Shown piece by piece: positions 46,836 through 51,761 of a stretch of 64,000 nucleotides of DNA. How positions within the stretch are numbered: the stretch's first letter is position 1; each line of letters begins with the position of its first letter. The position numbers and the translations under genes are program-made. Below the pieces are notes generated by a model. The model searched no databases, was not told the origin of the DNA, and worked only from the letters and a program-made list of their open reading frames with translations. Origin of the DNA: an uncultured Prevotella sp. (GTDB taxonomy: Bacteria; Bacteroidota; Bacteroidia; Bacteroidales; Bacteroidaceae); contig CAJOFE010000002.1 of NCBI GenBank assembly GCA_905233825.1, positions 1 to 64,000 on the forward strand. Reading direction: 5' to 3'.

Positions 46836-46926
46836 TACAAGTAAAAACTGATGCCGAAGGGTAACGACGGCACGAAAGGATGTTCCGTGCTCCAAGTGCT
46901 GACACCACTGCTATTCTGGAAATATA
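46836..46926 (-). pseudogene. Relic copy of the 3' end of the sigma/barrel fusion gene
   Basis: On the minus strand this encodes QNSSGVSTWSTEHPFVPSLP then FGISFYL and a stop. This is nearly identical to the last 30 or so residues of the intact gene ending at 47371 (WNTEHPFVPS; FGISFTY). The DNA match is about 85 nt with a handful of differences, and it breaks off abruptly upstream. It is the remnant of a duplicate or an ectopic gene conversion. Confidence 0.8.
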
Positions 46927-47060
46927 GCTGTAAGAAAGCCGAGCGCTAAGATGCTACCTACCTTCAGCGCCAACAAAAAAGGTACGAATAAGTGAGAACA
47001 AGATAAGCCAAAAAGGCATTAAAAGCGCATTCCTCCTCCGACTTACATTGATTTGGAATG

Positions 47061-47370: not shown

Positions 47371-48873
47371 TTAATAAGTAAAACTGATGCCGAAGGGCAA
47401 CGACGGCACGAAAGGATGTTCCGTGTTCCAAGTGCTGACACCACTGCTATTCTGGAAATAGTGATGCAAGGAGGGCTGAACGAAAAAGCTAATATGAGGC
47501 GTCACGTCATATTGCAATCCCATGCCAATATCCACTGACCACTGCACACCTGGCCTTAGTTTCTCAATTGTAGGCTCAACTTTCGTTCCGTCAGGCATCA
47601 GATAGCAGTTTTCAAGCGTAGAGGACAGGGGAAAATGGATGGTAGTACCACCTTTCACATAGAGTTGCCAACGACGTGAAAGCCGCCAGTTGTAAGAAGC
47701 ACTGACGGGAATTTCCAAATATCGTACCACCTGATGCTGTTGCAAGGAAACATAACTATTGCCTGAGCAGAAATCACTGGCCAGACGGGTATAGCCAAGC
47801 CCTGTGCCTATTACCCAGTGCTGTCCTATACGATGACTTAACGACAGAGATATGGAGAGTGGCTGGTGATGACGTGAGAGCGAGTCATAAACAATAGGGT
47901 TCGTTCCTGCGTCGGCGTAAGGCAGTTGCATCGTACCACCGTTAACCATACCGCTATAGGCCAGTTGTACGTGCCAGTTTTCCTTTTTTTTACAACATGG
48001 TTCAATCTTACATTCTGCTATGCCACTTTGCTCTACTATGATCGGTTCTTGCACAGCAATGGCTTTTGGTTGCGAGGTGTGCAGGCTGTCGGCTGGAGTG
48101 GGCGGTTCGGATGGCAGCAAGGTAGTATCGGTAGTGGCAAGTAGTAAGCAATGATCAGAAAGGACAGTAGCTGTTGGTAGAACTGAAGACGGAATCTGCG
48201 TAGCTGTATCCTTGATGATAACAAGCTGTTTATCTTCTATAGAGGTAATACCTGATAGATTATTTTGTCGCTCGGCTATGCCGCTTCGTTCTGTAAAGAA
48301 CCAACGGAAGAGCCCAAATGGCAAAGCGACGACCAGCAACAGGAGAAGCATAGGACGTAGCCAGCGACGCAACATAGCCTTAGCACGAAAGAGTTGTGAG
48401 GAAGAACTATGTGGTTCAATGTGGAGCAGATTGGCTATTTCCTGATGTGTCAGACCCTCCAGCACCGACAAACGGAATACACGTCGGTAGCCCTCGGGCA
48501 GGGCATCGACGGCAGCGAGGATTTCTGATAGAATCAATCTCGCTTCTGCATGGTTTTCCACAGTCGGCGTCATCGGTTCGGTAATCCCAGCAAGCGATAC
48601 TTGCCGCTCCAGTTTCTGCTGTCGCAGGTAAAGCAGGGCCACGCGACGTGTCACCATCCGCATCCAAGCCTCGGCACAGGCTGTATCCTTCAATTCGCCA
48701 ATCTTAGAAAAAATGAGCAGAAAGGAATCGTGCAGCAAGTCATTGGCTACCGCTTCGTTCTGTACATAGTGCATGCAGATTGTACGAAGCGGCTCACGCA
48801 TAGCAGTATAAAGCAGGGCATAGGCCTCGCGGTTGCCCTGCTGACATTGTTCTGCAATTCGCTGCAACAGCAT
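47371..48873 (-). CDS. ECF sigma factor fused to a transmembrane helix and outer-membrane beta-barrel
   Basis: This 500-residue polypeptide has three parts. Residues about 5-170 are an ECF sigma-70 factor, with region 2 (AYALLYTAMREPLRTICMHY, then LLHDSFLLIFSKI) and region 4 (LPEGYRRVFRLSVLEGLTHQ, EIANLLHIEPHSSSSQLFRA). Residues about 175-191 are a hydrophobic helix (PMLLLLLVVALPFGLF). Residues about 195-298 are a Ser/Thr/Pro linker, and 299-500 have alternating strands of an OmpA/PorT-like barrel ending in aromatic FTY. It could hold sigma at the inner membrane while sensing the outer membrane. ATG 48873 is chosen over an upstream TTG. It is the last gene of the C13/CTD operon. Confidence 0.82.
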   Translation of the reverse strand: MLLQRIAEQCQQGNREAYALLYTAMREPLRTICMHYVQNEAVANDLLHDSFLLIFSKIGELKDTACAEAWMRMVTRRVALLYLRQQKLERQVSLAGITEPMTPTVENHAEARLILSEILAAVDALPEGYRRVFRLSVLEGLTHQEIANLLHIEPHSSSSQLFRAKAMLRRWLRPMLLLLLVVALPFGLFRWFFTERSGIAERQNNLSGITSIEDKQLVIIKDTATQIPSSVLPTATVLSDHCLLLATTDTTLLPSEPPTPADSLHTSQPKAIAVQEPIIVEQSGIAECKIEPCCKKKENWHVQLAYSGMVNGGTMQLPYADAGTNPIVYDSLSRHHQPLSISLSLSHRIGQHWVIGTGLGYTRLASDFCSGNSYVSLQQHQVVRYLEIPVSASYNWRLSRRWQLYVKGGTTIHFPLSSTLENCYLMPDGTKVEPTIEKLRPGVQWSVDIGMGLQYDVTPHISFFVQPSLHHYFQNSSGVSTWNTEHPFVPSLPFGISFTY

Positions 48874-48892: not shown

Positions 48893-50653
48893 CTATTTCA
48901 CGACGACCTTCCGGCCACCAACGATATAAATGCCCTTCCGCAGTTGACGGTTTGGCAACTGACTATCTGATAGCTGACGGCCTAAGAGGTCATAGCAGCA
49001 CGTTGAATTGTCAATATTGAATCGAGAATAATCAATCTCCTTTATGGCTGTGGCATCATTGGGATTTCCTTTATTGCCCCACGCCTCGTTTGATATATTC
49101 AACTGCTGATGCCCTACACCGTCATAAGCCGCCATATAGGCACGAAAAGGAGGTACCCACTCATCCGCTTCTCCCTGACAGAATCGGTTGCCATTGGAAT
49201 CAAAGGCGTAGAAGTTTGGTGACAGGTGCAGCCCCACGGTGGTGCCGATAAAGTCGATGCCACTGCCTCTTATGATAGCCTCACTTGTCATGGGTACTTG
49301 TGTATTCTCGCCGACAAACAACAGGCTAGAACCAATGTAAATTCCCAGGATGTAAGGTATATACGCTTCCATCTGCGACAGGGAGCTCAACTGAGCCACA
49401 GTCAATGAGTCGTCCACATTTCCATCGTAGCGTAACACGGTCAGCATATCAGCATGTAGCACCTCGCTTGCAACATTGATTTCGTAGAGATTGACGTGAC
49501 TGGGACGGAACGGAAGGACAATAGTCTCGGAGTAGCCACGACCAAGCGCCTCGTCATCTGGATTATTATAGGAGGGTGTCATCAGGTAGCTGATGAACTG
49601 TGTATGGAAGGCCAACGGACAATAATAGTCATTGCCCTCTGTCAGTTTGATATTTTCGGCCTCTAACCCACGCACGATGTTGCATCTATTGTCCAGTCCC
49701 TGCGGCACATTGTCGAGCAGGTCGAGGTAGTAGAGACAGTTGGGATTGGCCTGCGAGGCATCAATGCTGAATATAGTGTTGAACGTGTACTGACCACGCA
49801 AATCCACGGCGACAGCCTCCTCAGGTATCGTCAGTTGCTGATTGTCGCCCAAAGGCAGGGGCAGTACCTGACCATTGGCCGTCCAATAAGTGTTGGTACC
49901 TGTGCGGGTGGTGAAACGGAGTGAGTCGATTGGCTCCAGGCCGTAAGGCATACCGTAGCCTACCTTCAGCGCGTAGTGGGCACCGTCACGGAACACAGCA
50001 TCGTAGGCGAAGTCCGCCTCAGCCTTCCCCCAGAATGCCAGTTTGTCAGCGATATGCTTGGCATACAGTCGCTCACCGCTGTCGCTGTCCTCAAGCCAGA
50101 GCACGATGCCGTCGTCATCGCCCGTTCCACCGTGGGCACCATAGTAGGGTGTGTCGTAGTTCTCCACACATGCCCATCCACGGATACGACTGCCATAAAG
50201 CACACGCTCGCCGTCGGCCTCGGTCAGCATGTCGAGTGAAAAGGTAGCCGTGAAGTTGAGCATGCGCAATGGCTGAATGGTGACATCGCAGGCTGCGAGT
50301 ACCTGCTGTCCTTCAGCATCAGCAGCAAGACGCAGCTCAAGGCTGCCCTCGGGCAATACGCTGTTCAGTGTCAGCGACCTGCTGCTATAGGATTCTACCA
50401 TAACAAGAGTATCAAGGCAAGGAATAAGATTGGCACTGCCTTTATCAAGAACCTGCAGGTAGAGACGGCCTTCATAGTCAGTGCCCGAGGTATTGCATAC
50501 ACTGGTCTCGATATACTGAGTCAGCTGGGCTAATCGGTTGCCATAGAGGGAAATAGAATCTACTTTGAGTACACTGGCATCACCCGTAGCAGCATCTGCG
50601 GTCATAGACAGCAGCAGGCAAAAGAGGGAAAAGTAAAGTTTCTTTATCATCAT
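48893..50653 (-). CDS. Secreted protein with type IX-like C-terminal signal, function unknown
   Basis: This 586-residue protein has a signal peptide (ending ADAATG) and a long beta-rich body with no catalytic motif I can name. It ends in CYDLLGRQLSDSQLPNRQLR KGIYIVGGRKVVVK, the type of C-terminal domain used for type IX export and surface attachment. Within that tail, QLSDSQLPNRQL is encoded by a repeat (48941-48982) similar to intergenic AGCTGATAGTCA units. The gene lies between the C13 peptidase and the sigma/barrel gene on the same strand (64- and 19-nt gaps), so it may be substrate, ligand or partner of either; inference. Confidence 0.72.
   Translation of the reverse strand: MMIKKLYFSLFCLLLSMTADAATGDASVLKVDSISLYGNRLAQLTQYIETSVCNTSGTDYEGRLYLQVLDKGSANLIPCLDTLVMVESYSSRSLTLNSVLPEGSLELRLAADAEGQQVLAACDVTIQPLRMLNFTATFSLDMLTEADGERVLYGSRIRGWACVENYDTPYYGAHGGTGDDDGIVLWLEDSDSGERLYAKHIADKLAFWGKAEADFAYDAVFRDGAHYALKVGYGMPYGLEPIDSLRFTTRTGTNTYWTANGQVLPLPLGDNQQLTIPEEAVAVDLRGQYTFNTIFSIDASQANPNCLYYLDLLDNVPQGLDNRCNIVRGLEAENIKLTEGNDYYCPLAFHTQFISYLMTPSYNNPDDEALGRGYSETIVLPFRPSHVNLYEINVASEVLHADMLTVLRYDGNVDDSLTVAQLSSLSQMEAYIPYILGIYIGSSLLFVGENTQVPMTSEAIIRGSGIDFIGTTVGLHLSPNFYAFDSNGNRFCQGEADEWVPPFRAYMAAYDGVGHQQLNISNEAWGNKGNPNDATAIKEIDYSRFNIDNSTCCYDLLGRQLSDSQLPNRQLRKGIYIVGGRKVVVK
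48941..48982 (-). repeat. Repeat-derived stretch inside a C-terminal sorting signal
   Basis: On the minus strand GTCAGCTATCAGATAGTCAG then TTGCCAAACCGTCAACTG encodes RQLSDSQLPNRQL. A similar AGCTGATAGTCAACAGTC sequence is intergenic at 24945-24962. Confidence 0.45.
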
Positions 50654-50717
50654 TTCTTTTATAATACATTATTTATATATAAGATGCAAAAGCAAGTCAA
50701 AAGACTGCATCATATCA

Positions 50718-51641
50718 TTACTTTTTTCTCACCTTGCGTCCTTGCAGGTCGTAGAGAGTACTGGTTGAAGAAACGGAGGGAGGAATGATGCCGTTTTCTA
50801 TCTCTACGTCTGAGAACACCCACTGGGTTGCCAAAATGGATGGCAGAGCTGTGAAGATAGACGTTTCGGGGCGACAGTCATGCTGTCGGGCGTAGTTATA
50901 GGCTTCCTGCATGGTGATGCAACCGTCTCCGTTCGCATCGGAACTGACGGGCTGGTCGTGCTCATCATGCTGGGCGATAGCACAAGTCCAGTGATAGACG
51001 AACTCGTCGTAGGGGCGGTCTTTGCATGCCCACGACATCTGGTCAGCAGCGCAGACGGCAGTGATGATGCGACCCTCGCCCCGCAGCGAAGCGACGAAAG
51101 CGCCTGCATAGCACTGCCCCAAAAGGATGTTCATCGTGGCGGGATGGCATCTGTTCACCATCATTGCCAGCTCCTGCGGGCTGAGTTTCTCACTGCCCCA
51201 CAGCCAGAGATGGATGTCGCCTTCGTCATTCTGCTCGCCGTGGTCGGTAATAAAGATAAAGAGGCGGTCGTTATAGGCCAGCATTGTCGAGAGCCAGCGG
51301 AAAGTGTCATCGAGGTTTTGGTAAGTAGCAGCTAATGTAAGGTCCTGTTCTCCGTCACCGTCAAGGTCGGTAGGCGACGAGGCAAACCCCGTTGCACCAT
51401 CGCACAGCATATCGTTGGCAGGATTGTCACCGTCGGCCATCAACAAGGTAATGTGGTCTTGGGAAAGATGATACGTCTGCCGCAACGTACGATAGAGAAA
51501 AGCACAGTCGTTCCAATAGCGTTCATGATTGTACATCTTATTACGTCCGCCACTAATGATGACGGCATATGTCTCGCCTGCAAGTACAGCCGTCGCGCAG
51601 CCAAGAAGAGCCAATAAGAGTAGATGTCGCATGCAATTCAT
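50718..51641 (-). CDS. Secreted C13 (legumain-like) cysteine peptidase with truncated C-terminal signal
   Basis: This 307-residue clan CD peptidase has a signal peptide (LLLLALLGCATAVLAG). A caspase/legumain core follows (AVIISGGRNKMYNHERYWND at the start, catalytic His in FITDHGEQND, catalytic Cys in ILLGQCYAGAF). There are two calcium-type loops (DLDGDGEQD and DANGDGCITMQEA) and a tail TLYDLQGRKVRKK that resembles the beginning of a type IX signal. Such enzymes cleave after Asn or Asp. ATG 51641 follows a TATCTTTA box by 4 nt; ATG 51632 is also possible. It is the first gene of the operon ending in the sigma/barrel fusion. Confidence 0.8.
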   Translation of the reverse strand: MNCMRHLLLLALLGCATAVLAGETYAVIISGGRNKMYNHERYWNDCAFLYRTLRQTYHLSQDHITLLMADGDNPANDMLCDGATGFASSPTDLDGDGEQDLTLAATYQNLDDTFRWLSTMLAYNDRLFIFITDHGEQNDEGDIHLWLWGSEKLSPQELAMMVNRCHPATMNILLGQCYAGAFVASLRGEGRIITAVCAADQMSWACKDRPYDEFVYHWTCAIAQHDEHDQPVSSDANGDGCITMQEAYNYARQHDCRPETSIFTALPSILATQWVFSDVEIENGIIPPSVSSTSTLYDLQGRKVRKK

Positions 51642-51645
51642 AATG

Positions 51646-51653
51646 TAAAGATA
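51646..51653 (-). promoter_or_regulatory. -7 box of the C13/CTD/sigma-barrel operon
   Basis: Minus strand TATCTTTA, one base off TAnnTTTG, 4 nt before the ATG at 51641. Confidence 0.45.
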
Positions 51654-51761
51654 CAAAGAAAAGCGGAAAGACTGCATGAGTACGGCATTATTTACAACAA
51701 TTTAACAGGTGAGGTTAAAGAATGTTCGCTATGCAGTAAAAGAGGCTAGTGTTGCATCTTT

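Follow-up and report, generated by a model that had tools for sequence, protein, structure and literature searches.

Dma3 of Bacteroides thetaiotaomicron (BT_2778-2779) has been described as a Dma protein that carries its cognate σ as an N-terminal domain, and its role is given as not yet known (PMC13088901, 2026). Outside the Dma proteins, ECF σs with a membrane-anchored C-terminal extension include the ECF48, ECF52 and ECF53 proteins and IutY (ECF243) of Pseudomonas putida. Cleavage involving Prc and RseP activates IutY (PMC8999054), which is the closest tested case of a σ set free when its own extension is cut.

The window analyzed here, a stretch of 64,000 nucleotides from an uncultured Prevotella sp. 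(contig CAJOFE010000002.1), encodes a protein in which an ECF σ, a predicted membrane helix, a tether and a predicted barrel follow one another in that order within a single frame (Table 1). Like Dma3 as described, it has an N-terminal σ domain and lacks an adjacent cognate ECF21 σ gene (PMC13088901); its σ lies in the same frame, and its upstream neighbors are a 'cargo' gene and a gene for a C13 peptidase. It shares with the Dma1/Dma2 type a predicted membrane helix, a long disordered tether and a C-terminal β-barrel, but differs from that type in having its σ in the same polypeptide and no N-terminal anti-σ domain. Membrane anchoring of an ECF σ through a C-terminal extension, predicted for the window protein, is a feature also of IutY and the ECF48, ECF52 and ECF53 proteins; these are described as having an anti-σ or zinc-finger domain in the extension (PMC8999054), whereas the window protein ends in a predicted outer-membrane barrel. 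A Pfam search of its extension gave no match to a FecR or zinc-finger anti-σ domain at E values up to 1. An earlier note on this DNA knew of no characterized example of such a protein; the architecture is already in print, since PMC13088901 reports Dma3 with its cognate σ at the N-terminus, and the window gene encodes a protein best classed as Dma3-type, Dma3 being compared by its description. What is new relative to the PMC13088901 text is the operon of the window fusion, with its C13 peptidase and cargo genes, and a predicted promoter element, neither of which is mentioned in the passages of that text on Dma3; the earlier note does not describe them either.

Table 1. Features of the fusion locus, numbered by position in the window.
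Feature	Position	Strand	Detail
σ-TM-tether-barrel fusion gene	47371..48873	-	single frame, 500 aa
ECF σ domain, residues 1-172 (regions 2 and 4)	48358..48873	-	
Predicted inner-membrane helix, residues 175-193, abutting region 4	48295..48351	-	hydropathy and model
Predicted disordered periplasmic tether, residues 194-295	47989..48294	-	pLDDT <50 across most
Predicted OmpA-like (eight-stranded) outer-membrane barrel, residues 296-500	47374..47988	-	
Remnant, near-copy of the fusion's barrel end	46844..46936	-	38 bits; 90% over 30 aa
'Cargo' gene, 586 aa, 19 nt upstream of the fusion, co-directional	48893..50653	-	signal-peptide-like start by eye
C13 (legumain-like) cysteine peptidase gene	50718..51677	-	PF01650 41.9 bits vs cut-off 22.8
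Predicted promoter 1, TGCAGTCTTT-N14-ATCTTTA, ahead of the C13 gene	51646..51676	-	matrix score 24.9
Predicted promoter 2, TGCAGTCTTT-N14-ATCTTAT, ahead of the cargo gene	50679..50709	-	matrix score 24.9

The 500-codon frame with σ regions 2 and 4, a hydrophobic helix, a tether and a barrel-like end, which the earlier note had read from the letters, was confirmed. The protein matches PF04542 and PF08281 above their cut-offs with no region 3 family listed by Pfam, which makes it an ECF (Group IV) σ, and matches TIGR02937 with 68.6 bits (cut-off 42.9). Hydropathy and an AlphaFold2 model of the window protein agree with the proposed topology from inner to outer membrane, and structure prediction gives an OmpA-like barrel for the C-terminal part. 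In this model (pTM 0.43, with moderate confidence only for σ region 4 and the membrane helix), one continuous helix, residues 157-204, spans the end of region 4 and the membrane helix, so that the presumed -35-reading helix runs into the membrane helix without a flexible spacer. The trees and profiles described below cover 42 fusion genes from 37 genomes, and in 38 of these the membrane helix starts -2 to +7 residues from the end of the σ-profile match; the other four profile ends (loci L051, L053, L124 and L140) are inflated by a second weak match, and two of them become +4 and -1 by hydropathy analysis. At the tether-barrel junction of the window gene, an A8 run about position 47985 (minus strand) marks a possible slippage or sequencing-error site, and the resulting Lys run is absent in most of the relatives aligned.

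The cargo, C13 and fusion genes, the fusion being the last, presumably form one operon. No Pfam or NCBIfam family was found for the cargo product. The C13 gene probably starts at 51632 or 51641, as its first ATG overlaps the promoter. Together with three other loci (L036, L037 and L038), the window forms a branch of the σ tree (100/99), termed type A, in which all four loci retain the C13 peptidase, a cargo homolog and the fusion. The D-H and G-x-C motifs of the peptidase (a presumed His/Cys dyad) are kept in all four as well, and we take them to be its catalytic residues. A tail on the cargo protein that looked by eye like a T9SS sorting signal was rejected as such on finding no TIGR04183 match, and the L036 homolog scores 13.3 bits against the TIGR04183 cut-off of 23; the T9SS translocon SprA is encoded in the genome (G000:C7:61490-66094, a frame of 2570 aa).

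Three of the four type-A loci have a gene of one serpin cluster behind the fusion (Pfam was run on that of L037), whereas the window has none, and the best candidate for a serpin remnant there is unconvincing (E 0.007 over 24 aa). Genes of this cluster also lie near the split σ/Dma pair of the window's own genome, where the assignment was confirmed, and at four other loci; the cluster is thus seen behind type-A fusions (L036, L037, L038) and near split Das/Dma-like pairs (L006, L063, L064, L066, L068), a placement that suggests a lasting tie of these σ systems to protease inhibition. On the side of the window gene where relatives carry the serpin gene, about 430 bases downstream, lies a 31-codon near-copy of the fusion's own barrel end, preceded by stops, which is probably a duplication remnant. 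In the other fusion branches, termed type B, the gene behind the fusion often encodes a lipoprotein, a radical-SAM/SPASM protein with a Gfo/Idh/MocA oxidoreductase, or a methyltransferase. Many of the loci L039-L057, L121-L134, L138 and L139 carry radical-SAM/SPASM and Gfo/Idh/MocA genes, a methyltransferase gene or a small lipoprotein gene, many with the same promoter element as the fusion, and these neighbors may possibly constitute an envelope-modification module.

The predicted promoter element consists of TGCAGTCTTT followed by an ATCTTTA- or ACTATATA-like box, and the consensus outside the window's branch is TGCAGTCTTTT, a spacer, and an ATCTATA- or ACTATATA-like box. This dyad is over-represented upstream of the 38 fusions outside the window's branch (15 of 38, compared with at most 4 in three shuffles), and TGCAGTCTTTT with no more than one mismatch is found upstream of 27 of the 42 fusion genes, as against 0.25 of 42 in shuffled sequence, for a consensus drawn from the same loci. 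A matrix was trained on 27 type-B sites, none of them from the window's genome or a type-A locus, and within the 64-kb window its two top matches lie at 51678 and 50711, with scores of 24.9 each; the third scores 14.2, and the best in each of five shuffled windows 12.5-16.3. Of the remaining type-A loci, L036 has two such sites (28.3 and 24.4), and the element has drifted in L038 (11.2) and in L037 (6.3, below other sites of that locus). Fifteen of the 42 fusion genes have no near-perfect site directly upstream; four of these are type A, for which sites were sought before the earlier genes of the operon, L041 and L051 have a strong site before the preceding gene, and the rest have a weaker site or none.

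Strong sites are mostly local. Among the loci fetched (690 kb in total, with the training sites counted), 77 sites score 18 or more by the matrix: 27 precede fusion genes, 36 precede truncated fusion frames or genes of the neighbor clusters, 8 precede other genes and 6 have no called gene behind them; no site at the nine split loci reaches 10. A pattern scan of the window's own genome (92.6% complete) returned promoter 1 as its sole match without mismatch and three matches with two mismatches, promoter 2 among them, and two of these four sites fall in the fusion's operon; the second box of this pattern was picked with the window sites in view, whereas the matrix was built without such knowledge. 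A wide regulon was rejected, as the 19 sites with three mismatches are near the control level and the 23 sites in all compare with 13 for the reversed pattern. Exact matches in 60 genus genomes number 30: 19 fall at fusion loci, three of them incomplete or truncated loci, and 11 lie elsewhere, compared with 8 for the reversed pattern, the pattern having been shaped partly on the same fusion loci.

It is fairly likely that the fusion is a one-piece envelope sensor, in which perturbation of the outer membrane frees the σ part and thereby switches on its own operon. The σ would be parked at the inner membrane, its predicted location, with region 4 silenced, an arrangement that likely replaces an anti-σ factor because the predicted -35-reading helix runs into the membrane helix. 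A signal received at the barrel or close to it would travel along the tether, and predicted cleavage near the membrane would free the σ. RseP is the candidate protease, a site-2 protease gene of this type being present on contig C7 of the genome, and release of σ by proteolysis is plausible. The freed σ is then predicted to read both TGCAGTCTTT promoters, ahead of the C13 and cargo genes, which would close a positive loop at its own locus: more sensor would be made, along with a cysteine peptidase and a cargo protein, both of secreted type. One published observation counts against this explanation, namely that in B. thetaiotaomicron the hypervesiculation of dma1 or dma2 mutants persisted when dma3 was deleted (PMC13088901).

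A broader proposal, to which we give slightly less than even weight, is that such proteins constitute a family of fused σs with no need of an anti-σ factor. In each member, one polypeptide would serve as surface sensor, mechanical wire through the periplasm, inhibitor (by way of the promoter-reading helix, buried at the inner membrane) and transcription factor, with a promoter element that serves roughly its own locus only; the target here would be a secreted protease module, joined by a serpin in relatives.

Cleavage would not be needed if the σ worked while anchored, as ToxR and CadC do, with RNA polymerase and DNA coming to the membrane and the barrel altering exposure of the σ. Such a mode of action would fit the fact that the analysis gave no cleavage site or protease partner, and the mostly local distribution of strong promoter sites would suit a σ fixed at one place. 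However, docking by an anchored σ should be hindered, because in the model no flexible spacer separates the -35-reading helix from the membrane helix, and ECF σs with membrane extensions have been shown (IutY) or are expected to undergo cleavage (PMC8999054), so we regard action in place as unlikely, if the best of the alternatives to a σ released from a one-piece sensor.

The relation of the fusion to systems with a separate σ bears on whether an anti-σ factor is still involved. The suggestion in the earlier note that two normally neighboring genes had fused is borne out by a split pair in the same genome that is homologous to both halves, and by the clustering of the 42 fusions in trees. On contig C4, a gene for a 181-aa ECF σ overlaps a Dma-type gene for a 406-aa protein whose short N-terminal (anti-σ) domain is followed by a membrane helix, a linker and a barrel; in single comparisons, the σ half of the fusion is 32% identical to this σ (E 6e-24) and its barrel is 28% identical to the 406-aa protein (E 6e-20). 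In a tree of 42 fused σs, 9 split σs and 14 other ECF σs of the genome (of 18 such loci, four were left out; the tree omits L070, L071 and L072, which exceed 230 aa, and L083, which gave no usable match), the fused and split σs group together (100/98), separate from the other 14, and thus have a common origin. All fused σs fall on one side of a branch (100/99), a separation that is unchanged when the membrane part is trimmed (99/98), and the 42 fused and 8 split barrels separate likewise (100/98). The two sequence trees are most simply read as the outcome of a single, old fusion event, and the kinship of the fused σ with the split pair points to ECF21 as only a lead.

In becoming fused, the σ lost the anti-σ domain of its partner. 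A profile built from the N-terminal region of eight split partners recovers those eight and a ninth, partial one outside the training set, yet matches none of the 42 fusions, the window protein included, and no other frame of at least 60 aa at the fusion loci, so that a separate Dma-type anti-σ gene beside the fusion was rejected. The part beyond the membrane helix measures 297-393 aa in the 42 fusions and 313-409 aa in the eight complete split partners (L066, at a contig end and with no complete Dma partner, was excluded from this comparison and from the barrel tree). Because the fusions give no anti-σ match and have similar lengths after the helix, the σ domain, as judged by sequence, occupies the position that the anti-σ domain holds in split Dma proteins. 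The absence of an anti-σ factor claimed in the earlier note thus holds for the domain of the split partners, in cis and next door, at 42 loci.

A conventional anti-σ factor might nevertheless act in trans, for example the split Dma protein of contig C4, with the barrel half of the fusion as a co-sensor. A complete split pair with an anti-σ domain does exist in the same genome, and induction of dma3 has been reported in mutants of dma1 and of dma2, from which crosstalk was suggested (PMC13088901). Yet the anti-σ profile has no match at the 42 fusion loci, which were the regions searched, the split Dma already has its own overlapping σ gene, and the fused group is distinct in both the σ and the barrel trees; we consider control in trans improbable.

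For eight pairs of other fusions in which dS was usable, dN/dS is 0.05-0.21 for the σ, 0.06-0.22 for the barrel and 0.20-0.44 for the tether, which exceeds both other parts in every pair; two pairs that include the window protein were left out because dS is saturated in the σ part. The σ and barrel of these other fusions are under purifying selection, and the tether is freer. The presumed recognition (-35-reading) helix reads PHSSSSQL in 32 of the 42 fusions, the other ten including L038 and L130, for which no helix was obtained, and L057, for which the wrong stretch was taken, and it differs in split σs; 98% of fusions carry Ser at residue 158, a position occupied by Ala in 89% of split σs. 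That the σ domain no longer directs transcription, and serves the barrel only as an anchor or scaffold in the cytoplasm, would be in keeping with a Sigma70_r2 match barely above cut-off in the window protein (24.8 vs 24), but purifying selection on the σ part of other fusions, the conserved recognition helix and the promoter element linked to fusion loci make this very improbable.

Fusions of this kind recur widely in the family. Single-frame fusions number 62 genes in 57 of 251 family genomes sampled, from 16 of 30 genera, a count that excludes four long frames with a match confined to the σ half, as well as nine frames that are shorter or broken. At the genus level there are 23 genes in 19 of 60 genomes, the window's own among the 60, and at the order level (247 genomes) full-length fusions outside the family were found, at the cut-off used, in one genome only (G525, two genes). 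A protein database held 537 relatives of the window protein, and nearly all of the best 120 are fusions of similar length; two queries from other branches gave 2718 and 1547 matches, the best 120 of each being mostly fusions, and fusions labelled Bacteroides sp. are among the matches listed. A scan of genome contigs with a single protein, a query poorly suited to the purpose, returned just one distant Acidobacteria σ. Broken copies occur as well: L137 (in G133) is divided between a frame of 368 aa and one of 182 aa, and G061:C13 is a copy with internal stops.

The order of σ, membrane helix and barrel for which the earlier note proposed a database search is therefore a recurrent architecture, seen in the 42 checked genes of 37 genomes, and the sequencing or assembly error that it named as a way to be wrong is excluded at the family level. 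An error that merged two genes, for which the A8 run close to the linker-barrel junction would speak, can be dismissed as vanishingly improbable, because 57 of 251 family genomes carry such single-frame fusions, many of them independent, with the same architecture in the 42 checked genes and in the 62 found across the family.

If a σ released from a one-piece sensor is the correct reading, this would be the shortest path from outer membrane to promoter known to the authors, with neither an anti-σ factor nor a two-component relay. Split Das/Dma systems, which have been tied to vesicle formation and gut fitness, may then be reducible to a single protein. A reporter carrying the promoter element would put the circuit to a direct test, and the element also provides a first candidate target for Dma3. 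Finally, the pairing of the fusion with a C13 peptidase and, in relatives, with a serpin suggests that at least one branch of these proteins senses when surface proteins are attacked or altered.
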